A DNA stretch of 58,747 bases from Paludibacteraceae bacterium (lineage in GTDB: Bacteria > Bacteroidota > Bacteroidia > Bacteroidales > Paludibacteraceae). Both the position numbers and the translations under genes were made by a program. Every line of letters begins with the position of its first letter. Position 1 is the stretch's first letter. Below are positions 40,895 through 58,707 of the stretch, in pieces. The notes beneath the pieces are model-generated. The model made no database searches and was not told the origin of the DNA. It saw nothing but the letters and a program-made list of their open reading frames with translations. Where the stretch lies: the NCBI GenBank assembly GCA_017464025.1, contig JAFUEI010000050.1, positions 1-58,747 on the forward strand. Direction: 5' to 3'.

Positions 40895-40918
40895 AATGAC
40901 AATAAGATGTTTTTATGA

Positions 40919-42265: not shown

Positions 42266-42293
42266 ACTGTTTTGTTTGTGTTGGGTTATTCTG

Positions 42294-42704
42294 TCATTTG
42301 AATACGAGGGACGAAACAATGCTCTGCACCTCCGCATCCTCCGGCGAGGTCCTGATGAAGAATACAATGGCAAAGTTCGCCGTCTCCTTGCCGTCGGCGC
42401 TTCTGTTGTAGAGTAGGCCCATTGAGTCTATGCCGCCCTCCGTAAGTATAAACGCCTTGTAGCTGCAGCCAGCTATAGTCACGTCGGGAGCGATGCGTAC
42501 GCCCATCTCGTCAACCATCATCTGCCGGATCTCGTCGAAACTCATGCCGTCGGTATCCCGTATGGTGATATTCAGTGAAGGACCATCTATAGAATCTGTC
42601 ATACTGGTCCCTTTATAGACGAGTGCCTCGTCTTCTTCTTCCGATAATACGCTCCAGCCGTCAGGGAGCGTCAGGCTGAATGTTCTTTGGTCAATTGTTT
42701 TCAT
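42294..42704 (-). CDS. Small hypothetical protein between lepA and nhaD
   Basis: 136 residues, no signal peptide and no recognised domain. The start FSLTLPDGWSVLSEEEDEAL and end VQSIVSSLVF resemble small DcrB/PsbP-like beta-alpha folds that begin with a LPxGW motif and end in a VxSLxF strand, but I would not assign it. It lies 30 bp after lepA and 28 bp before nhaD, so it is co-transcribed with both. Confidence 0.65.
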   Translation of the reverse strand: MKTIDQRTFSLTLPDGWSVLSEEEDEALVYKGTSMTDSIDGPSLNITIRDTDGMSFDEIRQMMVDEMGVRIAPDVTIAGCSYKAFILTEGGIDSMGLLYNRSADGKETANFAIVFFIRTSPEDAEVQSIVSSLVFK

Positions 42705-42734
42705 GCTATGAGAGTTTAATGGTTATACTGTTTC

Positions 42735-44558
42735 TCAGTCTAATTTCAGCACGGCAAGGAAGGCCTTCTGCGGCACTTCCACGTTGCCTATCTGCTTCAT
42801 GCGTTTCTTGCCCCGCTTCTGTTTCTCTAATAGCTTGCGCTTACGGCTCACGTCGCCGCCGTAGCACTTCGCCGTCACGTCTTTGCGGACCTGCTTCACC
42901 GTCTCGCGGGCTACAATCTTCTGCCCGATGGCGGCCTGTATCGCAATGTCAAACTGTTGCCGCGGAAGCAACTCTTTCAGCTTCTCGCACATGCGCCGCC
43001 CGAAGTCCACGGCGTTGCTGCGGTGCGTCAGCGTCGAGAGGGCGTCCACCTGCTCACCGTTCAGCAGAATATCCAGCTTGACGAGGTCCGACGGACGGAA
43101 GCCGTTCGCATGATAATCAAAGGAGGCATACCCCTTCGAAATCGATTTCAGCTTGTCGTAGAAGTCTATCACTATCTCCCCCAGCGGCAGGTCGAACAAT
43201 ATCTCCACGCGGTTGCCGCTGATGTACTCCTGCTTCACCAGTTCGCCGCGCTTGCCTAAACACAGCGTCATGATGTTGCCTATATACGTGGTCGCCGTGA
43301 TGATGCTGGCGCGGATATAGGGTTCCTCTATGTGGTCGATAACCGCAATGTCAGGCATGCCCGCTGGGTTGTGCACCTCTATCTTGTTCAGGTGCTTGTC
43401 ATATACGTTGTACGACACGTTCGGCACCGTCGTTATCACGTCCATGTCGAACTCGCGGTCCAAGCGCTCCTGGACAATCTCCATGTGGAGCAGGCCTAAA
43501 AAACCGCACCGGAAGCCGAAGCCTAAGGCCACCGAACTCTCCGGAGTAAAGGTGAGCGATGCATCGTTCAGTTGCAGCTTCTCCAGACTGGCACGCAGGT
43601 TCTCATAGTCCTCCGCCTCTATCGGATACACGCCGGCAAACACCATCGGCTTCACCTCCTCAAAACCCGCAATGGCCTCCGAACACGGACGGGCTACATG
43701 CGTAATCGTGTCACCCACCTTCACTTCCGTGGAAGTCTTGATGCCCGAAATGATATAGCCCACATTGCCGGCCGACAACTCTTTGGCAGGCTGCATGTCA
43801 AGTTTGAGGATGCCTATCTCGTCAGCGTCATATTCCTTGCCTGTGTTGAAGAAACGCACGTGGTCGCCTTGTCGCAACGTACCGTTCACCACCTTGAAGT
43901 AAGCGATGATACCGCGGAAACTGTTGAATACCGAGTCGAATACCAGACATTGCAGCGGAGCCTTCGGGTCGCCCTGCGGAGCAGGTATCCGCTCCACGAT
44001 GGCATCCAGTATCTCCTCCACACCCATCCCCGTCTTGCCGCTGGCACGGATAATCTCCTCCCTGCGGCAGCCTAATAGTTCCACTATCTCGTCCTCCACC
44101 ATGTCCGGCATCGCACTGTCCATGTCGCACTTGTTCATCACCGGAATAATCTCAAGGTCGTGCTCCAAGGCCATGTATAGGTTCGAGATGGTCTGCGCCT
44201 GAACGCCCTGCGAGGCATCCACTATCAGCAACGCACCCTCGCAGGCGGCTATCGAACGGCTCACCTCGTAGGAGAAATCCACATGCCCCGGCGTATCTAT
44301 CAGGTTCAGCGTGTATCGCCCGTCCGCAACAGGCGCGTCCCCCTCCCCGCCGGCCTTCGCTCTGTAGTCATACTGCATCTGGATAGCGTGGCTCTTGATG
44401 GTGATACCGCGCTCTTTCTCCAACTCCATGTCGTCTAACACCTGGTTCTCCATGTCCTTGCCCACAACGGTTTGCGTATATTCAAGCAGCCGGTCGGCAA
44501 TAGTGCTCTTGCCGTGGTCGATATGGGCGATGATGCAGAAATTACGTATATGATTCAT
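42735..44558 (-). CDS. lepA: Elongation factor 4 (LepA), translational GTPase
   Basis: 607 residues. G1 [19 protein letters not shown]2 [11 protein letters not shown]3 [13 protein letters not shown]4 NKCDM, and the LepA-specific C-terminal domain with [20 protein letters not shown]. It acts on stalled or post-translocation ribosomes at the inner membrane or in the cytoplasm. Length is normal. It is the first gene of a minus-strand operon with the hypothetical gene, nhaD and the Wzz-like gene. Confidence 0.97.
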
Positions 44559-44591
44559 GCCGTTAGTGTCTTCTCTTGCATTTTACGAGTG

Positions 44592-44623
44592 CAAAGATAC
44601 GAAGATTCCGTCAATCGCACAAA
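44592..44623 (-). promoter_or_regulatory. Promoter of the lepA operon
   Basis: Minus strand TTTG (44623-44620), 20 bp, TATCTTTG (44599-44592): full consensus, 33 nt before the lepA ATG. Confidence 0.85.
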
Positions 44624-44686
44624 CAGAAAAAGCCTCCCGTCCAAAAGTGGAGACTTTCCGTCAAATACCCGCACAGAGGGGGCATG

Positions 44687-44718
44687 GTTGCACATCTGAA
44701 ATCTTTCCGCTATCTTTG
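44687..44718 (+). promoter_or_regulatory. Promoter of the gene at 44751
   Basis: GTTG (44687-44690), 20 bp, TATCTTTG (44711-44718), 32 nt before the ATG; divergent from the lepA promoter. Confidence 0.75.
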
Positions 44719-44750
44719 CAGCATCAAACCGCAACCAACACTCCCTGCCT

Positions 44751-45170
44751 ATGTATCTTCTCGAATTATGTTCCTGGTTCTCCGGCCGCCCGGGCGACGA
44801 CATTGTGCAACTCGAAGCGGCGGAAGACAGCCCCCTCGAAGAACTCAGTGCCCGCATCAAAGTAGCCTTCTCGCTCCCGTACAACGACCTTGGCTTCCAT
44901 TCCTTTCAGGCCAACGGCCATATCTACATGCAGGAAGAGCACATTCCCCAGGTGCTGGAGATGGAGTTTGAAACATGGGAACCCGCCTATGAAGGGCATG
45001 AAGAGCCCGACTGGATATTCATGCGCGATCACGTCTATCTTCCTTCCGAGACCGCCACGCTCAGCGATGTCTTCACGGTCCTCGGCTCCGCTGTTATCTA
45101 CCGTCAGGATTTCCGCCACATCCGCATCCTGCTCTCGGAGCGCTTCGACACGGAGACTGTCAATGATTGA
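44751..45170 (+). CDS. pRiA4b ORF-3-like small protein
   Basis: 139 residues, acidic. The order (N-terminal strand MYLLELCSWF, helix DSPLEELSARIKVAF, then LPYNDLGFHSFQANGHIYM and a final VIYRQDFRHIRILLSERF) matches the PRiA4_ORF3 fold found in many small Bacteroidota proteins. The catalytic or binding role of that family is unknown. It has its own promoter. Its 3' end overlaps the 3' end of the convergent Cys-rich gene by 11 nt. Confidence 0.6.
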   Translation: MYLLELCSWFSGRPGDDIVQLEAAEDSPLEELSARIKVAFSLPYNDLGFHSFQANGHIYMQEEHIPQVLEMEFETWEPAYEGHEEPDWIFMRDHVYLPSETATLSDVFTVLGSAVIYRQDFRHIRILLSERFDTETVND

Positions 45171-45507
45171 CGAGGTCACCCGTCAGCGGAATCTCTGTCG
45201 TATCCGGCATCTCCACGGCGGGGTCACCCTGCAGGGCCGGCTCGCCTCCGTTGGTGGTGCAGGCACTCAGGGCCATCACACCCGCTATGCTGGCCGCAAT
45301 ACCCGTAATCCGTACGGCATGCCCCAACGAACGCCGTTTCTCCAACTGGTCTTCCAACCAGCTCACTTCTTGTTCGCAACGCGGGCACGTTCCCTCGCAG
45401 TCGCCTTCATGCGTACATTCCGGCTGAATCAGACGGATGTCGTTGGCCTCGGCTATCTCACGCCGCACTTCGCGCAAATGGCGGCACACTTCTTTTCCGT
45501 TATTCAT
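45160..45507 (-). CDS. Cys-rich small membrane protein next to a radical SAM enzyme
   Basis: 115 residues. Cys 8, 31, 37, 41, 44 and 83, with CTHEGDCEGTCPRCEQE giving a C-x5-C-x3-C-x2-C cluster that could hold zinc or an Fe-S centre. A basic segment (EKRRSLGHAVR) is followed by a hydrophobic segment ending MALSAC, which looks like a lipobox placed about 80 residues from the start. The C-terminus is acidic and Pro-rich. It is the last gene of a four-gene operon, 12 bp after the radical SAM gene. Function unknown; it may be the enzyme's substrate or electron partner (inference). Confidence 0.65.
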   Translation of the reverse strand: MNNGKEVCRHLREVRREIAEANDIRLIQPECTHEGDCEGTCPRCEQEVSWLEDQLEKRRSLGHAVRITGIAASIAGVMALSACTTNGGEPALQGDPAVEMPDTTEIPLTGDLVNH

Positions 45508-45519
45508 AATTTGTCGGTT

Positions 45520-46167
45520 CTATGTTGGTTTATTTTTGTTTATAACGCGCGCCGGTTTCGTCTCTGTTCTATATGTAAACAGGTCGAAGTCCGTATAGCC
45601 CATATCCTGCAGCCGGGCAATGCTCTTTTGCCGGTGATACTCATCGTTATAGCCCGCTATCAGAGGAATGCGTAACGTCACATGGGCCGCCTTGCGCTGT
45701 GCAGCTAAAAGCCGCAGGTTGCTTATTACCCTTTCGTTGTCCTTGCCGGTATAAGCCCTATAAACCATGCCGTCCACATCCTTTATATCTACAATCCAGT
45801 GGTTTACAATCGGCAACAGCATCTCCACACGCTCCGCTTCCACGTTCAGCGAAGTCTCCACCGACAGGTTCCAATAGCTGCCGCACAATGCGCGGAACTC
45901 GCGGATGAAGCGACTGCGCAGCAGCGGCTCGCCACCGCCGAAAGTCACACCACCGCCCGTCGCTAAAAAATACAACTGGTCCCGACGGACAAGGTCATAC
46001 ACCTCCTGCGTGCTGCGCCACATCTGCTTCTCCGCTTCAAAACACTGCGGATTCAGACAATAGCGGCAGCGCAACGGACAACCCCCGAAGCAGGCTAAAG
46101 TGGTCACGCCTTTGCCGTCCAAATTGATGCGGTGACGGCTTATCCCTATAAACGGGGCACGCTCCAT
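45520..46167 (-). CDS. Radical SAM, pyruvate-formate-lyase-activase-like protein
   Basis: 215 residues from ATG 46167 with a GGGAG ribosome-binding site; a GTG at 46185 would overlap the preceding gene. The [4Fe-4S] motif is CPLRCRYC (CX3CX2C) within FGGCPLRCRYCLNPQC, followed by VTFGGGEPLLRS, VETSLNVE and IVDIKDVDGMVYRAYTG, the strands of a glycyl-radical-enzyme activase barrel. Only the single catalytic cluster plus a neighbouring Cys is visible, no extra ferredoxin insert. No glycyl radical enzyme lies in the window, so its target may be the adjacent Cys-rich protein or a distant enzyme. Confidence 0.8.
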   Translation of the reverse strand: MERAPFIGISRHRINLDGKGVTTLACFGGCPLRCRYCLNPQCFEAEKQMWRSTQEVYDLVRRDQLYFLATGGGVTFGGGEPLLRSRFIREFRALCGSYWNLSVETSLNVEAERVEMLLPIVNHWIVDIKDVDGMVYRAYTGKDNERVISNLRLLAAQRKAAHVTLRIPLIAGYNDEYHRQKSIARLQDMGYTDFDLFTYRTETKPARVINKNKPT

Positions 46168-46175
46168 GTCGCTCC

Positions 46176-46874
46176 CTATTCCCACTGAGTGATATGGTTG
46201 CGGTTCTCAAAGTCAATGGTGATGAAGCCGTTGTTTTTCTGAATCATCAGCTCCATCTCTTTCGGACTCTGCTCACGCAGGTAGGTTTCAAAGAGATACA
46301 CAAAATCAGTCAGTTTGCCTAAGGCAGTCTCAAATTCCTTGCGCCCGGGGTCATATTCCATTCCTTCCTGACGCTCGAATGTGCCGTCGATGTAGCGCTG
46401 CCTATCCTCTTTGCCTCCTCCAGACAGCAATGCATTGTCCTCCTCTTTGGCCACCTTGATGTACCCGCCCCATTTCAACGGATCCGGACAGAGGTTGCGC
46501 CAGATGTAGTTCGACCATTTCCTGTAAACGCTCAGCGCATCCTGCACATTGTGGAAACTGCGGCAACCGCTGCTGCTTCCGACGGTGTCGTTGTACAGCC
46601 ATAGGGCAAGAGCTTCCTCCACACCGGCACCCCCTTCGTTAAACAGCGTATCGCGTTCGCCGCGGCTGAACATCCGCAAATCGTCAATATAACCCACACC
46701 CGTATAGGTGTAGCCCTGTTTCTCCAACCACGCCTTGCTCTCGTTGAACGACAGCCCTAATACGTGCTCCGTCGCTGCCGGAAGCGTCGTGTCGGTCGGA
46801 AGCGTCATCTGACCGTTGCTGCAGCCGCATAGCATTGCCGCCAAGGCCGCGATAATAAACAATTGCTTCTTCAT
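46176..46874 (-). CDS. Hypothetical lipoprotein of the radical SAM operon
   Basis: 232 residues with a signal and lipobox (LAAMLCGCS). The mature part is hydrophilic and mixed alpha/beta (WLEKQGYTYTGVGYIDDLR, RQRYIDGTFERQEGMEYDPG) and ends GFITIDFENRNHITQWE. No domain recognised. It lies 15 bp after the upstream lipoprotein gene and 8 bp before the radical SAM gene start, so all four genes are co-transcribed. Confidence 0.65.
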   Translation of the reverse strand: MKKQLFIIAALAAMLCGCSNGQMTLPTDTTLPAATEHVLGLSFNESKAWLEKQGYTYTGVGYIDDLRMFSRGERDTLFNEGGAGVEEALALWLYNDTVGSSSGCRSFHNVQDALSVYRKWSNYIWRNLCPDPLKWGGYIKVAKEEDNALLSGGGKEDRQRYIDGTFERQEGMEYDPGRKEFETALGKLTDFVYLFETYLREQSPKEMELMIQKNNGFITIDFENRNHITQWE

Positions 46875-46889
46875 GATATATCTATTTTG

Positions 46890-47174
46890 TTAGTTCTCTC
46901 CCGTTTCCTGCATCTGCTGCCCGTCAATGGCCGTCTGCACCGCCGGATCGCGCAGATAAGGGTTGAACGGCGGACGAAGCGTGTCTATATAACTACCCTC
47001 CTGACGGTACAACCTGTCATATTCAAACCGCGTATCATGCCTGCCATCTGGATCAAAAGGTTCGGTCGGCTTTAGGTCTGAGTTATAGCACCCCGCCAGC
47101 AGGATGCTCATACCCACTGCCGGAAGAACGCGAAGCAACGGCCGGAGAAGAGGTGTGTTTTGCATATTCCGCAT
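46890..47174 (-). CDS. Small hypothetical lipoprotein, first gene of the radical SAM operon
   Basis: 94 residues from ATG 47174 (MRNMQNTPLL; 47165 is an alternative). The start is fixed by the promoter, whose -7 box ends at 47196; longer frames begin upstream of it. Lipobox LLAGC. The mature part is Pro/Asp/Arg-rich with FDPDGRHDTRFEYDRLYR and NPYLRDPAVQTAIDGQQMQE. No known domain. Confidence 0.6.
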   Translation of the reverse strand: MRNMQNTPLLRPLLRVLPAVGMSILLAGCYNSDLKPTEPFDPDGRHDTRFEYDRLYRQEGSYIDTLRPPFNPYLRDPAVQTAIDGQQMQETGEN

Positions 47175-47189
47175 TTTGTTGTAATTTTG
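47159..47189 (+). promoter_or_regulatory. Promoter of the TPR-HTH regulator gene
   Basis: TTTG (47159-47162), 19 bp, TAATTTTG (47182-47189). It faces the minus-strand promoter; the two -7 boxes are only 6 bp apart. Confidence 0.6.
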
Positions 47190-47195
47190 CAACCG

Positions 47196-47227
47196 CAAAG
47201 GTACGGCATTAACTCCATATATGCAAA
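47196..47227 (-). promoter_or_regulatory. Promoter of the lipoprotein-radical SAM operon
   Basis: Minus strand TTTG (47227-47224), 20 bp, TACCTTTG (47203-47196): full consensus. It overlaps the transcription start expected for the opposed plus-strand promoter. Confidence 0.8.
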
Positions 47228-47313
47228 TTCCCGACTTATGCAATGCCGTTTTTACCATTTCCAGTTTATGCTACTTATCAGCTGTTTACACATGCCAACA
47301 TTTCGTAAGAGTT

Positions 47314-48951
47314 ATGCAGAAGTCCCTTCTATCATTATGCAGCCTGCTTTGCCTGCTCTTTTCGGGATCCTGCAGCCGTCAGGATGTGCCTGAAGCCGCT
47401 TTCCTGCAGCACGCCGCTGCCATCCTTTGGGACGACCCCCAGACAGCTCTCTGCCTGCTCGACACCCTCTCCCCCGCCACCGTTGATGCCCTCACACCCA
47501 CCGACCGCGCACACTTCTTCATGCTCCATACCCACGCCCTGCTCAAGAACGGGGCCTCTCCCGACCCCGCCGATGCCGAAACGGCCGCTGCCCGGTTCCT
47601 TCAGATTGGATCCGACCGCTATGCCGGCGAAGCACGATACGTGCAGGGAGCCGCTTGGGAAAAACGGGGAGACAGCTATTTGGCGGCCGAATGCTTCAAA
47701 GAGGCCGAGCATCTCCTCGACAATGCCGATGCGCCGCCCGTTCTCTCTGGCATGGTCTATTACAAACTCGGTATGACATTCGAGACCGACCAGCTCTATG
47801 AGGCAGCCGCCGAACAGTACCGCAAGGCCCTGCCCCTGCTCCGCCAGGCAGGCTATCCACTCTACACCGCCTGTTGCCTGCGCGACTTGGCACGCACCGC
47901 ACCCGACTCGCCCGAACGCGACTCCCTCTTCGCACAAGCACTCCGGGAAGCACAACTGCTCAGCGACACACTCGTCTATCTCGATGTACTTAGCTACCGC
48001 AGCAACTACACCGGCCACAAAGACACACTCGCACTACTCGGCATCAACCGCTATATGTGCAACGTCCTCGGCAATCCGCGCTACGCCGCCGACTTGGCAG
48101 AATACTGTCTCGACAAAGGACTCACCGACTCCGCCATCCACTACATCCGCATCTTCGCTACCGACACCGCCGCCACGGCGTGGAGCCGCGAACGCTACGA
48201 CTGGCTCTACAGCCGGTGGCTCCTGGCCACGGGACGCACTGCCGAAGCCTACTCCTTGCTGGCCGAACTCTATATTCACCAGTATCTCCGCCTCGCAGCC
48301 GACGGAAAAGCACGAACCTATGCCATCGCACGCCGCTACGACCTCCTGCGCGAGCAGGAGAAAAACCTCCGCCTCCAACTCGCCCAGCAGCGCCTCTGGC
48401 TCGTCATCGGAGCACTGCTCCTGCTCTTGCTCGCTGCTACCCTCGGATGGCGCTGGATGCGCCAGCGCCACCGCGAACAGGAGCGCACACAGCAGGAACG
48501 CATACGCGCACTCAATGCCGAACTCCGCCTGCGCAGGGAGAGCATGCGCCATGCTCTCGAACAGCGCGTACAACTCACACGGAAGATGCAGCTCGCCTCA
48601 CTCATGCAGGAGAAACCACTCAAAGACCTGCCCGCATGGGCACAGCAATATATCAATGCCAACCTCTTCGCCTCACCCGACCAGTGGGCCGGCTTCCAGG
48701 TGGAGTTCAACGCCGTCAGCAACGATTTCCTCACACGCCTCGCTGCCGACTATCCCGCCCTCACACGGGCCGACCTGCAGATTACGGCGCTTATCGTCCT
48801 CGGACTCTCCATTCAGGACATCTGCATCCTGCTCAATCTCACCAAGCGCACCGTCTGGTCCCGCCGTCTCCGCATCAAGACGCACCTCGGCCTCACCGAG
48901 TCCGACCACCTCGACTCCTGGCTCCTCCAGCGCTTCAACGCCACCCTCTGA
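47314..48951 (+). CDS. TPR - membrane - HTH (LuxR-like) regulator, lipoprotein-type N-terminus
   Basis: 545 residues from ATG 47314 (MQKSLLSLCSLLCLLFSGSC, a signal with lipobox); ATG 47221 would add 31 residues and stays in the transcript. The periplasmic part (about 30-375) is TPR-like (AGEARYVQGAAWEKRGDSYL, YYKLGMTFETDQLYEAAAEQ). One helix follows, LWLVIGALLLLLLAATLGW, then a coiled coil and a C-terminal HTH (ADLQITALIVLGLSIQDI, TKRTVWSRRLRIKTHL). This architecture is widespread in Bacteroidota and thought to sense outside signals and bind DNA at the membrane. Its promoter overlaps that of the divergent lipoprotein-radical SAM operon, so it may control it. Confidence 0.8.
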   Translation: MQKSLLSLCSLLCLLFSGSCSRQDVPEAAFLQHAAAILWDDPQTALCLLDTLSPATVDALTPTDRAHFFMLHTHALLKNGASPDPADAETAAARFLQIGSDRYAGEARYVQGAAWEKRGDSYLAAECFKEAEHLLDNADAPPVLSGMVYYKLGMTFETDQLYEAAAEQYRKALPLLRQAGYPLYTACCLRDLARTAPDSPERDSLFAQALREAQLLSDTLVYLDVLSYRSNYTGHKDTLALLGINRYMCNVLGNPRYAADLAEYCLDKGLTDSAIHYIRIFATDTAATAWSRERYDWLYSRWLLATGRTAEAYSLLAELYIHQYLRLAADGKARTYAIARRYDLLREQEKNLRLQLAQQRLWLVIGALLLLLLAATLGWRWMRQRHREQERTQQERIRALNAELRLRRESMRHALEQRVQLTRKMQLASLMQEKPLKDLPAWAQQYINANLFASPDQWAGFQVEFNAVSNDFLTRLAADYPALTRADLQITALIVLGLSIQDICILLNLTKRTVWSRRLRIKTHLGLTESDHLDSWLLQRFNATL

Positions 48952-49104: not shown

Positions 49105-52100
49105 CTATTTCACTCTCACACCGGTAGCGGTGTACATAGTGCCATCCGGACGGATGATATAGAGAATACCGTCAATCAACAGTTTACGATTCAACCATCT
49201 ATCATTCCTGACTGTTTCCTCTATACCTACGGAATTATTAATCACCACTGTGAACTCCACGCTTCCCCAGTCGCTAATCGGCTGCCGGTTATTGTCCAAC
49301 GAGCGGACACGGCAGGTGATTGAATAAGAACCCGGAGCAGATTCTCCGAAATCAAGTCCGCCGTATAGCTCTGTTGTAATATCACCACCAAGCGACCTGT
49401 TATTTTGATTATATATAAACTCCCATTCGTAGTATTGCACGCCATCCACGGCCTTCCAGTCGAGCCAGACTACCGATCCATCCTGCGAAGCTATTAAGCC
49501 GGTAGGAGTATAGCTGCCCGGCTGTTGTTTCGCCGTTGCCGTAAACTGCGCCGTGTAGTCTGCATCAGCGCTCGCACTGACAACAGCCGGCGACCAGCCG
49601 CTGAAGAAATACGTATAGTTGTCATCTTCGGCCTTGGTAGGTGATGCACCGCTATAGACAGGCATGGCTCCTTCCTTCACTTGCTTGCTCTGCAACTCCG
49701 TCCCATCGTAATTAAGAAAACGGATAGTGTAATACACCGGTATCGGCTCCTCCTTTTGTTCCACCGCAGCGATAGTGATGATACGCGTGGCTGTAACGCC
49801 CGAACCGTCAATGGCTGTCGCTTTGACACTTATCGTCCCGCCCTTGTTGGGCGTTAAGGCGGTAACAAGACCCGACGACTGGTCTATTGCCGCCATATCG
49901 GCTCCACGGGTTATTTCCCACACAACCTGCTTATAGGTGGTGTTCGACGGCATAAAATCGGCATACAGCAAGAGCAGCGTATTCTCGGCCGTAGTCTCAT
50001 ATCTCCCGTTCGCTGAAAGAATCGTCAGCGACGTGGCATAGGTCATTGTTTTGGCTGCCGAACGGTTGACGATGTTCGAACGACCCTGTAGAGACGGTTG
50101 ACTAACCGTCTCGATGACATGCCTTCTTGGAGAAGCTGATGCCTGCGACTCTGCACTCAGCACATACTCTATCGCGTACAGCGGTTGTCCCTCTTGTGGC
50201 GCGTAGTCGGTGTAAGAGGTGTTGTACGACGACACAGAAGCTATCTGTGTCAGACTGCCCTCGCCGGAGCCGCGCAAGATGTTATACGTCACCACATCGG
50301 CACCCACATACTGGTTCCATATCAGATTCCATTGGTTGTCACTCACGCCGCGGTTTATCGTCGTATGAACCGTCTGATGAACCGCACTCGCCGGTGTCTT
50401 CGTGCCCGACTCCATCACGCCGCGCAATGCATAACGCTCTGCTTTCTGAGTCGCATCCGAAGAGAGGTCGGTGTATCGGCCGACTGAGGTCGATACTGTA
50501 CCTAATGAGACAAACTGGTCGCGCACATTGGTTTCTTTTAGAACCTCAACCTGCGGGAAGGCAACGAGCATATCGCTTGTTGTGTTCCAACTGATGATAT
50601 TATGACCATCAGCATCAGAGGTAACGAGCAATATCTCCGGCTTGTCCTGCGCACTGATTATCTGAACCGGCTTCTGCGTCACGGCAGAGCAGCCGTTGCC
50701 GTTGCTCAGGGTGAGCACAAGTTCCAACGATGCGAACGTGGTAAGTGCATTCTCGGCGCTCCAGGCTCTCTTTGTGTCAAGCACAAGCGTGCGACCGTCG
50801 AAAGTCAGTTGCGGGTCGCGGTTGTCAATACCATTCCTTGTAATACTCTGCAATGCACCGTTTATGCTTATCTGTAAGTCACCGCTTAGTCCGTCAGCCC
50901 ATGTCACATCTACCTCTCCGCCATCGAACAATGCCGACGGCAGATTCGACCAACCCTCTACCTGATCCACATAAATCATGCGCTCATATCTCTTGTCCCC
51001 AAGGGTGAGCGTGATAGTCTTCGTGCCTGCGGTGTTCCACGATACCCTGTACGGACCAAAGCCGCTGCCGCTCTCTATAGTGCCACCGTCGAAGTCCCAA
51101 ACCGGTGTACCGGTGCGGTTCTCCGACATATAAGAGATGAGAGCTTCATCTCCCCAACAGATGGTGGTCGGTGCATCAATAATCTGCCGGTCAATATTCA
51201 CGCCTATCCTCTCCGAGAAGTCTGACATGAGGTTGCGCTGGTCTATCGCCTGAACCTGCACCTCATAGTCACCTGCGGTGAGTTCTGACAACGGAACAAG
51301 GAAGCGGGTTGCACGGATATATTCATAACCCGGCAGATAGGCCGACTTGCTGTTCAGCCCGTTCTGCGGCGAGATGACAAATGCACCTGCACCCGTCCGT
51401 CCTGCATGCTTAACCGACAGGTTATAGCGCATCTGCGATGCCGGAGTGTGGTCGTCTGCTGCAGAATTCCACTCGACAAGCAGACCATTCTCTGTCTGCA
51501 CTGCACGCACAGCAGTAGGAGCCTGCGGTGCGGTATTCGCGGAGCCTGCTATCTCGCGAAGTGCAGGAGTCGATGATATCAGGTTGCCGTATGCATCGTA
51601 GTTGCCTTTGCTGTCATAGAGATAGACAGCACCCGGGAAGTCGGTGTACATAAAGTTGTATGTTCTTTCCAACTGAGGTTGGATGAAGCCTTGCGTCATC
51701 ACGCCCCCCTGCCCCATATACCATACATACAGACCGTAGATGTCGCTATAGCCGTTTTTGCCCAATGAGGCATTCACTTGGGTGGAAAGAATATCAAGAT
51801 AACCGTTGTTGTCGATATCAGCAAGTAAGATTTGCTCATTAATATAGAAGTCGTTGAGTTCGCCAAGCGGCAGTATCTCGGGTGCCGACAGCGAGCGGTT
51901 CTCTTCGTTCCAAAGGATATAGATGGAGTAGTCTGCAGGTTTAGCATGACTGCGATGAGTGATAAGGTCAACATAGCCGTCGTTGTTCAGGTCGGCAAAA
52001 CGGGCATCGGTCAAATTTAAGTCTTCATCAGCAAGAGCCTGCTGCAAAGGTATTGCCAACTCGTCAAACACGGCATTACCCTTGTTCTCATACACATACA

Positions 52101-55100
52101 GTGTGCGGTATTGGATTACATTGTCCACAAACTCGGTGTTGAGATAAAGGACATCAGCCCAGCCGTCGTTATTGTAGTCAAGAACCCTGTTAAGCGTTTG
52201 AGAATACCAATTTCCGGCACTCTCGGAAGCATAACCAAATGCTTGTTTGGCTCGCTTGCCGTCGCCGTTGATGCTGATGTCCTTATACTGATAACTGCCG
52301 TCGCTTTGCAGCGTCTGGAAGAACATTCCGCCTTCTTGATCGTATGAACCGGCAAACGCATATACCGAGGGCACGCCGTTGTGCAACATATCGGCACGCA
52401 TAGGATTGGCAGTATAACCATCATTGTAAGAGAAGAATCCCGCAAGGCCTGCATCCTCTTTTTGTGAGGTCATATCCTGCACATTGTCAGCGTGAGGCAG
52501 AGTGGCGAAACGATAACCTTCTGAACGAGAATAAGAGTAGGTCTGCAGGTCGGCATAACCGTTCTTGTTCCAATCAAACCATACAGGTCGCCCCGAAATA
52601 GCAATATTGGTGTTCCATAGTCCCGTCGCCTGTGTGTAATCAACAATGCCGTTAGCCTGGGATATATACGAGTTGAACACGTCAAGCAGACCGTCGCCGT
52701 TGAAGTCGGCTTTAGCACTACTGCCGATTATATTGCTAATGGTATATCCGTTGTCGCTATTGCAGGTGAGGTATTCACCGGATATGCCTGCGGGCAATAC
52801 GGTGAGCGTGGCGGAATAAGATGCCGCCTTGCCATCGGGGGCCGTAACAGTGTGGGTAATCACTTTCTCGCCTGCGGTCGGGAATAGGAGCTTGAGGAAC
52901 GATCCCTGACGAATCAGTTCACCGTCTGCCTGTTGCCAACTGTGTTTGTAGTCGTCAGGTAGAGAAGTGTAGTGTATCTCTACCGACTCATTGAAGGCTA
53001 TCTTCTCGCTTGAGAGCGAGAACTGTGCAGGCAGTGCGTTATGTACTATGCTTGCCTCTAAAGACCATGCCGAGCCTGCGTGCTGTGCATCGACAGTCTG
53101 AACAGAGGCATAGATGGTGGCAGGTGCGTAGGTCGAGAGGTCAACGGCATAACTGTGGCTCTTGCCCATGTTGCCGTCAAGGAAGTTGCGACGTGAACCG
53201 TCTGCGTTAGCGTGTGCATAGACGATGTCGTTGCCGCCTGCCTTGGTCCCTAATCGCAAGGCGTAGGTCAGGTCGCCCGTCATAGTCTCTTTGTCTTGCC
53301 CGTTCCGCCATGTGACGGTCAGCAGACCGTTCTCGTAGCGCAACTCGGGTGCTGCAGGTGCCTTAGGAGCGGTGTTGGCAGTAACACCAAACGTCTTTGC
53401 CTCGCCGAACTCAGTCGTGAAAATCCGTGTCTTGCCTTGCGCTAGTCCGCTCACCCATATCTCCGCCTTGCCGTCATTATCAAGGTCTTCGGCATTGATG
53501 CGCAGATTAGCAGGAGTGTTCGCGTATTCAACGGTGAACAAGGTTTGCGGTGCAGAGAATGTCAAGTCGGCATTGCCGCGAAGCCATGCCACCTGATGTT
53601 CGGTCGGTGTCCAACTGTTCTCCCCGTCAGCCCCGTTGAAGGCAAGCAGGTCGTAGTAACCGTCGCCGTCGATGTCCTGCAAAGCGGAGAACCAGAGATT
53701 TTCAGAACCGTAGTTCTGCTCCGGCCGTTGTGTGAAGTTACCTTGCCCGTCGTTTAAGAAGAAGCAGGTGTAAGCAGTCTTGGTGGCATTCCTCTGAGCC
53801 GAGAAGGTAGCGAGGATGTCAATGTCCCCGTCATGGTCGAAGTCGTAGCAATACAAGAGTTCATCCACGGCTGCGTTCTCATACAGCGTCTTGGTCTCAA
53901 AGTTGCCCTCCCCTTTGTATATGGAAACATACAGCTTCTCGCCCGGGAAGATGAAGTCCGTCAGTCCGTCGTTGTTCAAATCGGCAGGTACCACCATGCC
54001 GTTGGTCTCGGCTGTAACGAATATCCCGTCACCCATATTCAGATAGACAATGCCGTTATTCTCGTCAATTAGGTCGGTAAGGTTATCGGCATTAAGGTCG
54101 AGGGCTTTAGTGATGAACGGTACGGTATAACCTGTTGATGGTGCACGGCTCGCTTCCGCATTCCGTCTTGGCGCACGCGAGAGAGCGGCACCGCTCAAAC
54201 TTGCCATACCTGAACTATAGCCATAGTTGGGCGTAATCAGACCCCTACCGGACGAGTAACTCTTCTCCTTGTAGGTCGCGGCCCACTCGGCGGTGGACGA
54301 TATAGTCTCATACCGGTCCCATGTCATTACCTGCATATAGCCCGGTTTGAACGAACCGTCAGCCTGCTGATAGGCGAGGTAGTAATTGGTCGTTGAGTTC
54401 CAGTTGCCGTAGCCTAAACCGCCGCCGGCACCGATTTCAGAAACAAACCAACGGCTAATATCCACCACGATATAGTCGGTGCGACCGTCGCCGTTCACAT
54501 CAAATTGCGGCAGGAACAGCGCTCCCTCAACCGCTTTGTAGCCGTCTTCTTCACTGAGAAGAGAGTAAGCCTGCTTGCTCTTGTTGTCTGATATAGTAAT
54601 GCCGAAGTCAGGCTGACCGTCGTGGTTAATATCGGTTGGAAAGAGCGAGTTCATACCGTCAACAGAACCATATAATTTCTTCTCAAACAGAAAGTTGCTA
54701 CTCTTATCGCCACTAAGGACAAGACTGTTGTCGCTCGACACATACAAGGCCTGTTTCTTGCCATCGCCATTCATGTCGTACATGGTGGATCCATCCGGCA
54801 TGTCGATGAACACGAAGCCGTCGTCCGATACTAATTTGCCAATATAGGGTATATAACCCTTGCCTATGCCCCAACGGTCGGAATGATTGTAGCGGTTTTC
54901 TATGAACTTGCCAAAAAGAACAACCGTATCGCCTTGTTGCAACTGTTGTTGGCTGACAAACGGAGTAAGTTCCTGACCAACCATATTGAAGCCGTATATC
55001 TCCTCTCCGTCCTGTCCGTCTTCGGTAATGCCAATGGTCAGTTTGCCGCCTGTTTGCAGAGCCGACACACTATGCACTATACCCTTAACGGCGTATGCCT

Positions 55101-57984
55101 CTTTGAGGTATTTATCGCGCTCGCTTCCATTCTTTTCGCGGAGGATAGCGATAGCCTCGCTCGCCTCGGCCACGGTCAGTATCCCTTCGCTATCCTTATT
55201 GTATCGGTATAGTGGACTAATCGTAACGCCTGTCTCGGCGGCAGCACAATCAACGGCATCGATGTTTTGCAGATTTGCTAAATATCTGCAACGATAGCAG
55301 GCACTTGCCGTGATGCCCGTAATGTCCTTGGTGGAAGTTCTGCTATCACCTCCCCAGTTCCAGTTGATGTTGATGCTTTTCACGCTCTCGTCAAAGCTGA
55401 AAGAGTAATCCCCGTTCTCGTTCTTTGACATTCGCGTGCCCGGCCAGATGCCTAAAGGCTCCGCGTTGTCGTCGGTCCAAGCGTAGAGATATAGCGAACT
55501 CGTCGTTACATTGTCCGAACTGAGCGTAACGGTGATGCTCTTCTCTACCACCGGCTCAAATTGTATATCCGTCAGCGGGGTGTCCCAGCCAAGGAAAATA
55601 TGATGCTTGAGTACGGGCGTGGCAGGAGCCGTGGCCGTGCCGCCTTGCTTCACCAACTGCTCGTCAAGCACATCGCCGAAGAAATCAACAAAACGCACCT
55701 CCACATAGCCTTGCGGGATACATCCTTCTATACTCTCAAACACCGGCCGGATAGTGAGGTCGGTGTGCACATTGCTGAAGGAGCTGTCCCAGCCTTTGAA
55801 TACAATACACTCGTTAGGTGTCGGTTGGTCTGCCGGTGCAGTAGCACTCCCGCCATCGGCAATGGTCTGCGTGGAAATCTCTTTCCCGTCTTTGTCAAGG
55901 AAAGTAACGGTGTGGGAGGAAACAACTTCGCACAACGATTCAAAGGCTGTAATAACAATATAATTGTCGGCATTTGTGATGCCAAGACTGTCGGTCGCAC
56001 CTGTCCACACCACCTTCACGCCCTCTTGCTTTGCCGAGCCGTTGGAGAAAGTGGAAGCGGCAAGGATGGCTGCGTTTTCTTCATTCGTACATGTGAAACT
56101 GAAATTGCGGATATAGTTCTTGTTTAAGACAGAGAGCACTTTGCCGCGAGGCATGCGTATATAGCATTTCGTCTGGTCGCTGTCGAAAGAGTAATAGGCG
56201 GACGGAATCTTTACGGTGATATCGCCTTGAGTCTGTGATATATCATTCCTGTCAATCGTCTGCTGCGCATTCCATTCGTAAGCAGTGATAGCAAACTCCT
56301 TCTTTGTCTCAAACAGCGGACGGATAGTCATGTCGCCGCGCACCTTGCTGTAGTCTTGGTCCCAACCGGCAAACTGCTCACACTCCTCGCCCGTCGGATC
56401 GGCTGGAGCCGTGGCGGCACCGCCGGCTATAACGGTCTCACGTTTCAGTTCCTTGCCGGCTTTGTCAAGGAAGATGACGGTGCAAGGCACTTGCTCGTAG
56501 TACTCACACGGAATACCGAAAGATACAATGTCGGCATTATCCCAAGCGTCTGACGGGTAGGTTATCTCCAACTGTGTCGTGGCGCCGCTCCAGACAACGG
56601 AAGCACCGTTCTGGCGCAGCGAACCCGTGTTGCACGTAGATGCTGCTAAATAAGCGGCACGCTCCTCGCTGATGGTGCGGATGGCAAAACTGCGGAAGAC
56701 TTCCGGTTTCTTAACGCTCAGCACACTACCCTGCTTTAACACAAGGCAACGAGTGCTCACGCCATCGATATAGTTAATGTACCACTGAGGCTCTGTCCTG
56801 TCGCTGTAAGCTACGCTATACGTATAGCCGTTGTCGGTGGAAGAGAGACTGGAACTCTCGTTCTTCCACCATGTGGCAAGAGCATACTCTTTATCAATAC
56901 GATAAAGCGGATACACTTCAAGGTCGGAAGTCACTTTGCTGAAGTCCTCGTTCCAACCGTCAAAACATTCATGGCTGATTACGGGCGCCGTTACACTCCC
57001 GCCGATAACCACCTGTTCGCTCTTCAGCTCTTTGCCGTCCATGCCGAAGAACGTCACTGTCACTTTATTATCTGTCTTGTCAGAGATGATGGTGATGCCA
57101 TCGATAGACGCATCATTAAAACACTCCATCTCTACGTTCCCGCCACTGCCCAACCAGGCAACGGTTTGCTTCGTAGCATCAGCACCATATAGCTGAAAGA
57201 CGCCGTTGGAACATGTGGCAGGACCGTTGTATGTACCATAATAGTTGAGACCGTTGAGGAAATAGTCGGCATAATCCGCATGAGAAAAATGAAGCAATAT
57301 CTTGCGCATCTTGTAGGGTGCAACAAAACGCATGATTCCGTTTTTCTGCAAACGGACATTGCCCGACTGGAAATACCCATAAGAGATGGTGAGCGTTTTC
57401 CCGTCTTTGCTGTATGACTCATTCGAAACCCTTTCCCCGTCGCTGAAGCCCTCATCATCTATCCATTGCGCGATAGAAATTACTGTCGTGTCGTTGTATT
57501 TCGACTCGTCCTCTACTATCGGCACTGCTTTCTGCTCCGTAGCGAGAACGAATTGCACGAAGCGGGCGGTGTTGTTCAGCGTCACCGTCACGCTCTCGGC
57601 CTTGCCCTTCCATGTCGTCTTGGTGTCTGAGGCCGTTGCATTGCCTGTACTCCATGAGGCAGCCGCAAGGTTGGTGGCTTGAGCCGCACGATACATGCTG
57701 AACTCGGCTTGCGTGAGTTCATAGCCGTCTGCTGCCGTCAGCGTCAGCGTATTGCCGCTCACTGCCGCTATCGCCAACTGAGACAGGTTGTATGTCGGCT
57801 GAGTGCCACTGCCTTTCGAGAAACTGATGGTGATACCATCCTGCACTATACTGCCTACCTCACTGCCATCGGTCAGACTCTGTGCCGATGCCCATTGCTG
57901 TGCACTCACACTTGTCTCTGCAGCCTTTGTTGCACCCATGCCTAACGAGCACAAGGCAACGATCATAATAAAAAACCTTTTCAT
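49105..57984 (-). CDS. Giant exported repeat protein: InlB, starch-module-like, VCBS/FG-GAP, PKD, Fn3 and Ig-like domains
   Basis: 2959 residues. Signal (FFIMIVALCSLGMGATKA); four InlB/Listeria-Bacteroides-type repeats (about 310-815, e.g. VTFLDKDGKEISTQTIADGG); a CBM26-like module (SLYLYAWTDDNAEPLGIWPG); an OB-fold-like domain (about 935-1050); at least twelve VCBS/FG-GAP Ca2+ loops from about 1065 to 2060 (DMNGDGKKQ, DVNGDGRTD, DFDHDGDID, DIDGDGYYD, DFNGDGLLD, DYNNDGWAD, DLNNDGYVD, DIDNNGYLD); two PKD-like domains (about 1650 and 2280); Fn3-like and Big_2-like domains; another InlB repeat (about 2760); and a C-terminal tag ending YTATGVRVK. No catalytic site. Export is clear; adhesion or glycan binding is inferred. 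Confidence 0.85.
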   Translation of the reverse strand: MKRFFIMIVALCSLGMGATKAAETSVSAQQWASAQSLTDGSEVGSIVQDGITISFSKGSGTQPTYNLSQLAIAAVSGNTLTLTAADGYELTQAEFSMYRAAQATNLAAASWSTGNATASDTKTTWKGKAESVTVTLNNTARFVQFVLATEQKAVPIVEDESKYNDTTVISIAQWIDDEGFSDGERVSNESYSKDGKTLTISYGYFQSGNVRLQKNGIMRFVAPYKMRKILLHFSHADYADYFLNGLNYYGTYNGPATCSNGVFQLYGADATKQTVAWLGSGGNVEMECFNDASIDGITIISDKTDNKVTVTFFGMDGKELKSEQVVIGGSVTAPVISHECFDGWNEDFSKVTSDLEVYPLYRIDKEYALATWWKNESSSLSSTDNGYTYSVAYSDRTEPQWYINYIDGVSTRCLVLKQGSVLSVKKPEVFRSFAIRTISEERAAYLAASTCNTGSLRQNGASVVWSGATTQLEITYPSDAWDNADIVSFGIPCEYYEQVPCTVIFLDKAGKELKRETVIAGGAATAPADPTGEECEQFAGWDQDYSKVRGDMTIRPLFETKKEFAITAYEWNAQQTIDRNDISQTQGDITVKIPSAYYSFDSDQTKCYIRMPRGKVLSVLNKNYIRNFSFTCTNEENAAILAASTFSNGSAKQEGVKVVWTGATDSLGITNADNYIVITAFESLCEVVSSHTVTFLDKDGKEISTQTIADGGSATAPADQPTPNECIVFKGWDSSFSNVHTDLTIRPVFESIEGCIPQGYVEVRFVDFFGDVLDEQLVKQGGTATAPATPVLKHHIFLGWDTPLTDIQFEPVVEKSITVTLSSDNVTTSSLYLYAWTDDNAEPLGIWPGTRMSKNENGDYSFSFDESVKSININWNWGGDSRTSTKDITGITASACYRCRYLANLQNIDAVDCAAAETGVTISPLYRYNKDSEGILTVAEASEAIAILREKNGSERDKYLKEAYAVKGIVHSVSALQTGGKLTIGITEDGQDGEEIYGFNMVGQELTPFVSQQQLQQGDTVVLFGKFIENRYNHSDRWGIGKGYIPYIGKLVSDDGFVFIDMPDGSTMYDMNGDGKKQALYVSSDNSLVLSGDKSSNFLFEKKLYGSVDGMNSLFPTDINHDGQPDFGITISDNKSKQAYSLLSEEDGYKAVEGALFLPQFDVNGDGRTDYIVVDISRWFVSEIGAGGGLGYGNWNSTTNYYLAYQQADGSFKPGYMQVMTWDRYETISSTAEWAATYKEKSYSSGRGLITPNYGYSSGMASLSGAALSRAPRRNAEASRAPSTGYTVPFITKALDLNADNLTDLIDENNGIVYLNMGDGIFVTAETNGMVVPADLNNDGLTDFIFPGEKLYVSIYKGEGNFETKTLYENAAVDELLYCYDFDHDGDIDILATFSAQRNATKTAYTCFFLNDGQGNFTQRPEQNYGSENLWFSALQDIDGDGYYDLLAFNGADGENSWTPTEHQVAWLRGNADLTFSAPQTLFTVEYANTPANLRINAEDLDNDGKAEIWVSGLAQGKTRIFTTEFGEAKTFGVTANTAPKAPAAPELRYENGLLTVTWRNGQDKETMTGDLTYALRLGTKAGGNDIVYAHANADGSRRNFLDGNMGKSHSYAVDLSTYAPATIYASVQTVDAQHAGSAWSLEASIVHNALPAQFSLSSEKIAFNESVEIHYTSLPDDYKHSWQQADGELIRQGSFLKLLFPTAGEKVITHTVTAPDGKAASYSATLTVLPAGISGEYLTCNSDNGYTISNIIGSSAKADFNGDGLLDVFNSYISQANGIVDYTQATGLWNTNIAISGRPVWFDWNKNGYADLQTYSYSRSEGYRFATLPHADNVQDMTSQKEDAGLAGFFSYNDGYTANPMRADMLHNGVPSVYAFAGSYDQEGGMFFQTLQSDGSYQYKDISINGDGKRAKQAFGYASESAGNWYSQTLNRVLDYNNDGWADVLYLNTEFVDNVIQYRTLYVYENKGNAVFDELAIPLQQALADEDLNLTDARFADLNNDGYVDLITHRSHAKPADYSIYILWNEENRSLSAPEILPLGELNDFYINEQILLADIDNNGYLDILSTQVNASLGKNGYSDIYGLYVWYMGQGGVMTQGFIQPQLERTYNFMYTDFPGAVYLYDSKGNYDAYGNLISSTPALREIAGSANTAPQAPTAVRAVQTENGLLVEWNSAADDHTPASQMRYNLSVKHAGRTGAGAFVISPQNGLNSKSAYLPGYEYIRATRFLVPLSELTAGDYEVQVQAIDQRNLMSDFSERIGVNIDRQIIDAPTTICWGDEALISYMSENRTGTPVWDFDGGTIESGSGFGPYRVSWNTAGTKTITLTLGDKRYERMIYVDQVEGWSNLPSALFDGGEVDVTWADGLSGDLQISINGALQSITRNGIDNRDPQLTFDGRTLVLDTKRAWSAENALTTFASLELVLTLSNGNGCSAVTQKPVQIISAQDKPEILLVTSDADGHNIISWNTTSDMLVAFPQVEVLKETNVRDQFVSLGTVSTSVGRYTDLSSDATQKAERYALRGVMESGTKTPASAVHQTVHTTINRGVSDNQWNLIWNQYVGADVVTYNILRGSGEGSLTQIASVSSYNTSYTDYAPQEGQPLYAIEYVLSAESQASASPRRHVIETVSQPSLQGRSNIVNRSAAKTMTYATSLTILSANGRYETTAENTLLLLYADFMPSNTTYKQVVWEITRGADMAAIDQSSGLVTALTPNKGGTISVKATAIDGSGVTATRIITIAAVEQKEEPIPVYYTIRFLNYDGTELQSKQVKEGAMPVYSGASPTKAEDDNYTYFFSGWSPAVVSASADADYTAQFTATAKQQPGSYTPTGLIASQDGSVVWLDWKAVDGVQYYEWEFIYNQNNRSLGGDITTELYGGLDFGESAPGSYSITCRVRSLDNNRQPISDWGSVEFTVVINNSVGIEETVRNDRWLNRKLLIDGILYIIRPDGTMYTATGVRVK

Positions 57985-58014
57985 AGATGTATTGTTGGAA
58001 TGTTTGATTCTCTA

Positions 58015-58066
58015 TTGTCGGGAGGTATCCTTCTCTACCTTCTCTTTTGTCGGGATGCATCCTTCG
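58015..58066. repeat. 20-nt direct repeat in the 5' leader (period 32)
   Basis: 58015-58034 (TTGTCGGGAGGTATCCTTCT) and 58047-58066 (TTGTCGGGATGCATCCTTCG) match at 17 of 20 positions. They lie between the leader terminator and the start of the giant gene. Confidence 0.7.
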
Positions 58067-58111: not shown

Positions 58112-58154
58112 AAAAACACATTCAGGCGACGCGCACAAATGCGCATCGCCTGAA
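58112..58154 (-). terminator. Terminator-like hairpin inside the leader of the giant gene
   Basis: Minus strand stem TTCAGGCGATGCGC / GCGCGTCGCCTGAA (58154-58141 and 58134-58121; one mismatch) with a 6-nt loop, followed by TGTGTTTTTA. It lies 128 nt upstream of the giant gene start and downstream of the small ORF. No consensus promoter is visible between it and the gene, so it should act as an attenuator. Confidence 0.8.
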
Positions 58155-58174
58155 CAAGTTAGGCCATGTTATTG

Positions 58175-58276
58175 CTATTCCGAGGTATTCCTCCGCCCGA
58201 CCGAACCGGCAAATAACCGGGAATGGGGGGGGGTAAACCTATTGGTTATAAGGCATATATACCTTTCATTCTCCAT
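58175..58276 (-). CDS. Small leader ORF (33 residues) upstream of the giant gene
   Basis: ATG (58276-58274) is preceded by AGGAGGAGCGACC, an unusually strong Shine-Dalgarno for Bacteroidota. The product starts MENERYICLITNR and ends VGRRNTSE; no signal or known motif. It ends 20 nt before the attenuator-like hairpin. A run of nine G (58225-58233) inside it may allow slippage. It may be a leader peptide, a small protein or chance; the arrangement favours the first. Confidence 0.4.
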   Translation of the reverse strand: MENERYICLITNRFTPPHSRLFAGSVGRRNTSE

Positions 58277-58286
58277 GGTCGCTCCT

Positions 58287-58352
58287 CCTGAAAGCAACTA
58301 TTGCATTACTTGAAAGCTACTATTGCATTGCTTGAAAGCAGCTATTCTTACT
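58287..58352. repeat. Three tandem 22-nt repeats in the leader
   Basis: 58287-58308, 58309-58330 and 58331-58352, consensus CTTGAAAGCWACTATTGCATTR; copies 1-2 differ at about 3 positions, copy 3 is more diverged at its end. They lie just before the Shine-Dalgarno of the leader ORF on the minus strand. Confidence 0.85.
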
Positions 58353-58393
58353 ACCTCCGTATAACCTTGTTATATCAATCGGTCGTAGCGGTG

Positions 58394-58425
58394 CAAAGGT
58401 AGTGATTATTTTTCATTCACACAAA
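58394..58425 (-). promoter_or_regulatory. Promoter of the leader and giant gene
   Basis: Minus strand TTTG (58425-58422), 20 bp, TACCTTTG (58401-58394): full consensus. Transcription would start near 58387, about 400 nt before the giant gene. Confidence 0.85.
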
Positions 58426-58529: not shown

Positions 58530-58563
58530 ACCTTCCCATCTACCCCCCCCCCACACACAACAA

Positions 58564-58594
58564 AGAGCCCCTCGATATCTCTATCGAAGGGCTC
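58564..58594 (-). terminator. Terminator of the rRNA operon
   Basis: GAGCCCCTCGATA / TATCGAAGGGCTC stem (58565-58594) with a TCTC loop; on the minus strand it is followed by TTTGTTGTG. A run of ten C (58543-58552) lies just beyond. Confidence 0.8.
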
Positions 58595-58600
58595 CCAAAG

Positions 58601-58707
58601 ACGGAAGCTACCTACTCTCCCACTTGCGCAGTACCATCGGCGTTGCTGAGCTTAACGACCCTGTTCGGAATGGGAAGGGGTGGGACCTCAGCGCTATAAC
58701 CACCTTA
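58601..58707 (-). rRNA. rrf: 5S ribosomal RNA
   Basis: The reverse complement contains the conserved 5S core: CCCATTCCGAACAGGG, CGTTAAGCTCAGCAACGCCG, ATGGTACTGCGCAAGTGGGA and GAGAGTAGGTAGC. Boundaries are approximate. The 40 nt beyond it are the 23S-5S spacer, so the rest of the rRNA operon lies past the right edge on the minus strand. Confidence 0.95.

Follow-up and report, generated by a model that had tools for sequence, protein, structure and literature searches.

A gene encoding a protein of 2959 residues lies behind an rRNA operon in a Paludibacteraceae bacterium, and a promoter, tandem repeats, a Shine-Dalgarno-like site, a short open reading frame and a hairpin precede it. The question raised by this locus is whether that leader works as an attenuator, translation of the short frame or an antitermination event deciding if transcription reaches the giant gene, as a sequence-only reading had suggested. 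We analysed the whole stretch of 58,747 nucleotides (hereafter the window), which is contig C28 of assembly G000 (2,114,178 bases in 71 contigs, 89% complete), together with related genomes.

Results

Layout of the region

All features described here are read on the minus strand. The 5S rRNA gene (58599..58707; Rfam RF00001, 74.9 bits) marks the end of the rRNA operon, the contig ending just upstream of it, and a pattern scan places a terminator-like hairpin 3′ of the 5S gene (58563..58596). Just 3′ of both, near the contig end, lies the predicted promoter TTTG-N20-TACCTTTG (58394..58425), which is of the Bacteroidota type. It is followed by a tandem array of 22-nt repeats (58289..58346; 88% matches, Tandem Repeats Finder score 95), by the motif AGGAGG, read in the sequence at 58289-58284, and by a 33-codon ATG frame (58276-58178, stop to 58175; 58175..58276 overall), which includes a C9 run (58225..58233). 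A hairpin, TGTG and T5 make up the putative intrinsic terminator (58112..58154). Between its T-run and the ATG of the giant gene at 57984 there are 127 nt (128 had been counted previously), with two 26-nt direct repeats, 88% alike and spaced 32 (58008..58065). The giant gene (49105..57984) was delimited by translation and Pfam; its product contains FG-GAP repeats and a Listeria-Bacteroides repeat, and by eye its N-terminus resembles a signal peptide. The ordered parts listed in the sequence-only reading were all found, with two adjustments. The hairpin is present with its T5, the 14 bp given earlier being Watson-Crick pairs to which one G-U pair has to be added; the tandem array is present as well, in 2.6 copies instead of three full ones, the first two being 91% alike and merely 14 nt of the pattern recurring in all three.

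The promoter and the terminator

Promoters were sampled in 449,689 bases of G000 (the window and 20 further stretches), taking those genes from a simple ORF caller whose upstream side was free for 60 nt or more. The motif TAnnTTTG is located upstream of 84 of the 192 genes sampled, 13 being expected after shuffling, and a two-part promoter precedes 57 of them. A weight matrix was built from 56 promoter sites, the leader's own among them. The leader promoter scores 25.8 (median of the training sites, 23.7) and its spacing is the mode of the 56 sites.

The hairpin (58154-58121) has 15-nt arms with 14 Watson-Crick pairs and one G-U, a loop of 4 and an energy of about -29.3 to -29.8 kcal/mol, and it is followed by TGTG and T5 (58116-58112). 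In 300 dinucleotide shuffles of this leader, no terminator as strong arose. When the RNA up to the T-run is folded, pair probabilities range from 0.96 to 1, except for the innermost pair (0.69). The efficiency of the terminator is uncertain, as a 4-nt spacer separates the stem from the T-run. Judged by sequence, the promoter and the hairpin are far beyond chance and are real elements. The leader places an apparent intrinsic terminator between promoter and gene, as a leader-peptide attenuator would; its own predicted promoter and terminator are also what an independent small RNA gene would have.

No competing antiterminator fold was found in the leader, and forbidding the terminator pairs costs 14.3 kcal/mol. 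The leader body without the hairpin folds like shuffled sequence (z -0.54); for the whole 400-nt stretch including the hairpin, z is -2.17. With an assumed footprint of 12 nt, a ribosome halted at the stop codon of the small frame would end 8 nt short of the hairpin. Considering this distance and the lack of an alternative fold, we see no sign of control by a competing fold or by simple occlusion. At Rfam gathering scores, the 5S rRNA is the only known RNA family in the window, and three eukaryotic families matched in the leader (E 1.4 to 7.8) are at chance level. An invertible promoter was also considered and rejected: apart from the terminator, the inverted pairs present are imperfect or short, of 11-16 nt.

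How common is a terminator inside a leader in this genome? Among the 53 G000 genes with a scored promoter there are two, the giant gene and a radical-SAM gene; a second finder, applied to 36 leaders of at least 50 nt, returned four, namely the window leader, two missed small genes (89 and 91 aa, under the ORF limit) and a 186-nt leader ahead of a 428-aa ORF (L098). The latter finder missed the radical-SAM leader and the former missed L098. Both counts indicate that the arrangement promoter-terminator-gene is rare, not unique, in G000. The radical-SAM gene (identified by Pfam) follows a second long leader with a terminator-like hairpin at its end (L087:12160-12664, contig C8). Partial matches to it, of 30 to 313 nt, occur in 9 other genomes of the genus (E up to 0.001; relatives L172-L178), and the frames close to its 3′ side in L172, L177 and L178 look, by eye, radical-SAM-like, glycosyltransferase-like and like a membrane protein.

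The gap before the giant gene

The best promoter score in the 127-nt gap, -2.3, is equalled by 37% of 300 shuffles. The earlier statement that no second promoter is recognisable between the hairpin and the gene holds in this sense. As a control we took divergently transcribed genes, for which a separate promoter is to be expected: 28 of 58 such G000 genes score at least as high as the weakest training promoter, and 30 have no recognisable promoter. Because of these 30 genes the absence of a promoter in the gap proves little, and read-through of the terminator can be proposed only weakly. The earlier conclusion that most transcripts should end at the hairpin unless termination is relieved is not supported, for the same reason.

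The small frame, its Shine-Dalgarno-like site and the repeats

We analysed next whether the 33-codon frame looks like a gene. Its codon score is -0.31 per codon, no better than that of its shuffles (-0.21, sd 0.17; p 0.71) and below the 5th percentile (-0.07) of real 33-codon gene pieces, which score 0.24. In a protein search of 178 genomes of the genus, the best match outside its own copy had an E-value of 0.08; 50 of the 178 genomes (own included) match at E up to 1 and, as the E-values refer to one genome each, these matches are at chance level. Reading through the frame, we saw no run of regulatory codons.

AGGAGG stands 7 nt ahead of the ATG. This motif is rare: of 261 sampled upstream regions, 1 has it within the final 16 nt, and 6 have GGAGG or AGGAG there. 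The pairing energy of the site, -11.0, computed with a 16S rRNA tail whose sequence we presume, is equalled by 53 of 840 random 25-mers (6%) and by 16 of 334 upstream regions of ORFs of at least 200 codons. Ribosomes of Bacteroidia are reported not to recognise Shine-Dalgarno sequences (McNutt et al., PMC9976891). In the same paper, strong sites are noted before rpsR in Bacteroidales, which leaves room for some Shine-Dalgarno use, and no Bacteroidales meet the published criteria for the rpsU exception. The idea that ribosomes lacking bS21 read AGGAGG was rejected, since neither of the candidate starts of rpsU in G000 has a strong site (-2.4 kcal/mol). Codon usage, homology, strength of the Shine-Dalgarno-like site and competing folds are all negative for the leader-peptide control proposed earlier.

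The C9 run suggests a phase-variable version of the attenuator, in which slippage would shift the stop of the small frame relative to the terminator. In the other two frames, the stop would lie 7 nt ahead of the hairpin or inside its 3′ arm. If so, a ribosome in the slipped frame would keep the hairpin from forming, so that polymerase could continue into the giant gene, and slippage would turn a 2959-residue exported protein on and off at the level of termination. We consider this scarcely credible. The whole G000 assembly has 11 distinct G/C runs of at least 9. Of the nine outside the window (L065 and L069 being covered in part), most among those listed sit between genes in DNA rich in purines or pyrimidines, and L063 and L071 apparently fall within coding frames; hence the C9 run is not special to leaders. 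The two in the window (58225-58233 and 58543-58552) are about 310 nt apart. Elsewhere in G000, a G12 run (L073:78-89, contig C68) has a promoter-like TACCTTTG on one side and, on the other, what by eye resembles a glucose-1-phosphate thymidylyltransferase gene.

Conservation of the leader and relatives of the giant gene

The leader had been expected to be kept in relatives carrying the giant gene, and this expectation was not borne out. No homologous leader was found by blastn in the 177 other genomes of the genus. In the search of all 178 genomes, in which at most 3 candidates were scored per genome, four matches of 23-28 nt were obtained besides the leader itself; three of them, upon being read, lie in unrelated sequence, and the fourth is locus L061. 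A search of 41 genomes (own and 40 relatives) gave, besides the leader's own place, only matches of 25-42 nt to the promoter part. As far as searched, the leader lacks the conservation that would be looked for in a leader-peptide attenuator. In the genome_contigs collection, the 24-nt repeat pattern was absent and the giant protein yielded no confirmed related locus. A phage search gave three records, each matching the 5S rRNA part only. For two Bacteroides phage LoVEphage records (MW660583.1 and OY731433.1), the match to the window's 5S rRNA is at 79%; the site is annotated as 5S ribosomal RNA in one record and as a DUF2724 protein in the other.

Within the genus, 56 of 61 genomes (own included) have some match to the giant protein, many of these matches covering repeat domains only. 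Twelve upstream regions of related giant genes were read, from 10 genomes, two of them (L046 and L047) being near-identical copies in one genome (G050); loci L051-L053 and L055 were left out. They differ from the leader of the window. Seven of the twelve have a promoter 21-184 nt ahead of the start and no terminator. By script, two have no promoter, one of which (L056) shows by eye a promoter about 40 nt before the ATG and would be an eighth region with a short leader. The remaining three (genomes G022, G023 and G181) share a long leader of 299-450 nt which is unrelated to that of the window and gives strong matches in only these 3 of the 178 genomes, two further matches being of 26-30 nt. Its terminator-like hairpin, of -11 to -14 kcal/mol, is equalled by 3, 5 and 12 of 300 shuffles. 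The giant proteins of these genomes are 53-58% identical to that of the window over the longest aligned piece, and less elsewhere. No 5S rRNA was detected at E up to 1 in loci L042, L043 and L044 (in L043, within the 396 nt upstream available), so these loci do not show the placement 3′ of an rRNA operon. The recurrence of a long leader with a terminator-like hairpin before related giant genes is a weak hint, at the sequence level, that this anatomy may matter.

The G022 leader region shows a further peculiarity. A block of 420-446 nt (L042:1358-1801, L044 and L082), with two promoters and part of a leader, is common to G022 and two relatives at 96-97% identity, despite the giant protein of G022 being just 53-67% identical to theirs. 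Recent exchange or strong selection could account for the block.

A structured leader family found in the genus

In the course of the analysis we met a family of structured leaders, each about 260 nt long, which we call R1. Its two members in G000 are located at L091:11251-11508 (contig C18), ahead of an acyltransferase gene, and at 8739-9012 of contig C5; further loci are L107-L136 and L144-L170. The 334-nt L091 leader matched by blastn, in part, in 113 of 178 genomes of the genus. This figure overstates the family, since many matches cover a short piece located upstream of the structured core. Rfam gave no match at E up to 1. An alignment was built from 22 of the 30 loci L107-L136, L107 being added by hand; left out were L118, L127, L130, L132 and L133, in which the core was found, and L112, L115 and L134, in which the pattern detected no core. 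In it, 98% of the cells pair. Two-sided changes occur at 10 of 36 pairs, a number that 0 of 500 shuffles matched; for further pair types the figure was 14 of 500 shuffles. The signal is lost when the partners of the pairs are slid. The covariance model finds two members in G000 and, with strict filters, members in 16 of 25 genomes of the genus and none in 16 genomes of other genera in the order.

R1 ends at, or a few nt from, the ATG of unlike genes. In 23 of 27 further loci, the end of the element is where a frame of at least 90 codons begins, and 10 of these 23 frames look EcoRI-type methylase-like by eye. Six downstream proteins were tested, and acyltransferase-3, EcoRI-type methylase, glycosyltransferase-2, DUF2334 and MBOAT were recognised, one protein being unrecognised. 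R1 may be an undescribed cis-acting RNA or the site of a mobile cassette. Membership of the window leader in R1 was considered and rejected, since no match was obtained in the window, L042, L044 or L082 at E up to 10.

Discussion

The most likely answer to the question is that the region is an ordinary long leader or a small RNA. We tentatively favour the former, in the shape of a lineage-specific promoter-proximal terminator with the giant gene reached by read-through, and hold this to be about as probable as its alternatives taken together, or slightly less. A strong promoter just 3′ of the 5S rRNA would produce an RNA of about 280 nt ending at the intrinsic terminator; a fraction of transcription would read through to the giant gene, and the terminator, having no switch built into it, would be a constant brake on this very costly gene. 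The promoter score, the strength of the terminator, the chance-level gap, the cost of losing the terminator fold and the lack of a homologue all count for this reading, as do the three relatives with an unrelated long leader and a weaker terminator-like hairpin. Against it counts that the giant gene may have its own promoter, considering the divergent genes without a recognisable one. Transcription start, termination, read-through and dependence of the giant gene on the leader promoter are here predicted from sequence. We infer that the leader is tied to the position of the giant gene behind the rRNA operon and does not represent a regulatory RNA that is conserved; the seven related upstream regions with a short leader and no terminator indicate that such a brake would not be a general feature.

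Ranking close behind, and possible although doubtful, is the reading that promoter and terminator enclose a small RNA gene in its own right, about 280 nt long, and that the giant gene uses a non-consensus promoter of its own within the 127-nt gap. The transcription unit is complete by sequence, its terminator is strong and free of a competing fold, and more than half of the divergent genes, which need a promoter, show none that can be recognised. A small RNA gene would fit less well with a best gap score at chance, with the lack of a homologue in the 177 other genomes and of an Rfam match beyond chance, and with a leader body that is not unusually structured. That the repeats, the G/C runs and the terminator merely gathered behind the rRNA operon with no regulatory meaning would agree with the two tandem arrays, the pair of direct repeats and the two G/C runs (9-10 long) that fall within 600 nt, and with the failure to find a leader homologue; chance, however, is not expected to yield a near-consensus promoter and a hairpin of 15 bp with T5, and we regard such accretion as improbable. 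The same low probability is assigned to processive antitermination, in which a UpxY-like NusG paralogue would load on the leader and carry polymerase past the terminator. In B. fragilis, UpxY proteins are reported to keep transcription of capsule operons from ending prematurely in the 5′ leader, but upxY genes are described as adjoining their targets (PMC7819879). The eight frames tested downstream of the giant gene (39920-48948) encode no NusG-like domain, the other side consists of the 5S rRNA and the contig end, and no conserved loading element was found. Least probable of these, and very unlikely indeed, is ribosome-coupled attenuation, translation of the small frame deciding whether the terminator forms. 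The rare AGGAGG at a suitable place, a frame ending 23 nt before the hairpin and the strong sites reported before rpsR in Bacteroidales (PMC9976891) would speak for it; the codon score, the lack of a convincing homologue of the small frame in 177 other genomes, a pairing energy that random 25-mers and upstream regions of ORFs also reach, the reported behaviour of Bacteroidia ribosomes together with the unmet rpsU criteria, and a halted ribosome ending before the hairpin all speak against it.

The main value of the result is negative: the order promoter, Shine-Dalgarno-like site, short frame and hairpin, recognised by eye, is insufficient to call an attenuator. The caution applies to a phylum in which ribosomes that ignore Shine-Dalgarno sequences have been reported and in which half of the divergent genes sampled here lack a recognisable promoter.

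Leader-peptide attenuation or antitermination of a surface protein gene had been called unusual in Bacteroidota, with no known description of this arrangement. Related systems are in print. Leader-peptide attenuators of amino-acid operons, inferred also in Flavobacterium psychrophilum (PMC9723704), have the same promoter, small ORF, terminator and gene; unlike them, the leader studied here has neither a run of regulatory codons nor a competing antiterminator fold, and its target is not biosynthetic. The tetQ gene of the Bacteroides element CTnDOT, listed as a translational attenuator (PMC5418344), is alike in being controlled in a leader, but the control acts on translation, not on termination, and the small frame of the window leader is unsupported. 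In B. thetaiotaomicron, 5′-derived small RNAs are described, as are long 5′UTRs whose sORFs are reminiscent of attenuation (PMC7366714); they share an RNA close to its promoter that precedes a gene of the same orientation, and were inferred from RNA sequencing, whereas the window leader is known from its sequence only. The UpxY system, which relieves premature termination in Bacteroides 5′ leaders (PMC7819879), differs in that the window has no upxY-like gene in the eight neighbouring frames and its leader is not conserved. The features in common with the B. fragilis capsule operons are a promoter, a 5′ leader, premature termination (here predicted) and an operon for a surface structure. If a fixed terminator does brake the giant gene, the locus would add one more case of promoter-proximal termination in Bacteroidota, where it is known at capsule loci.
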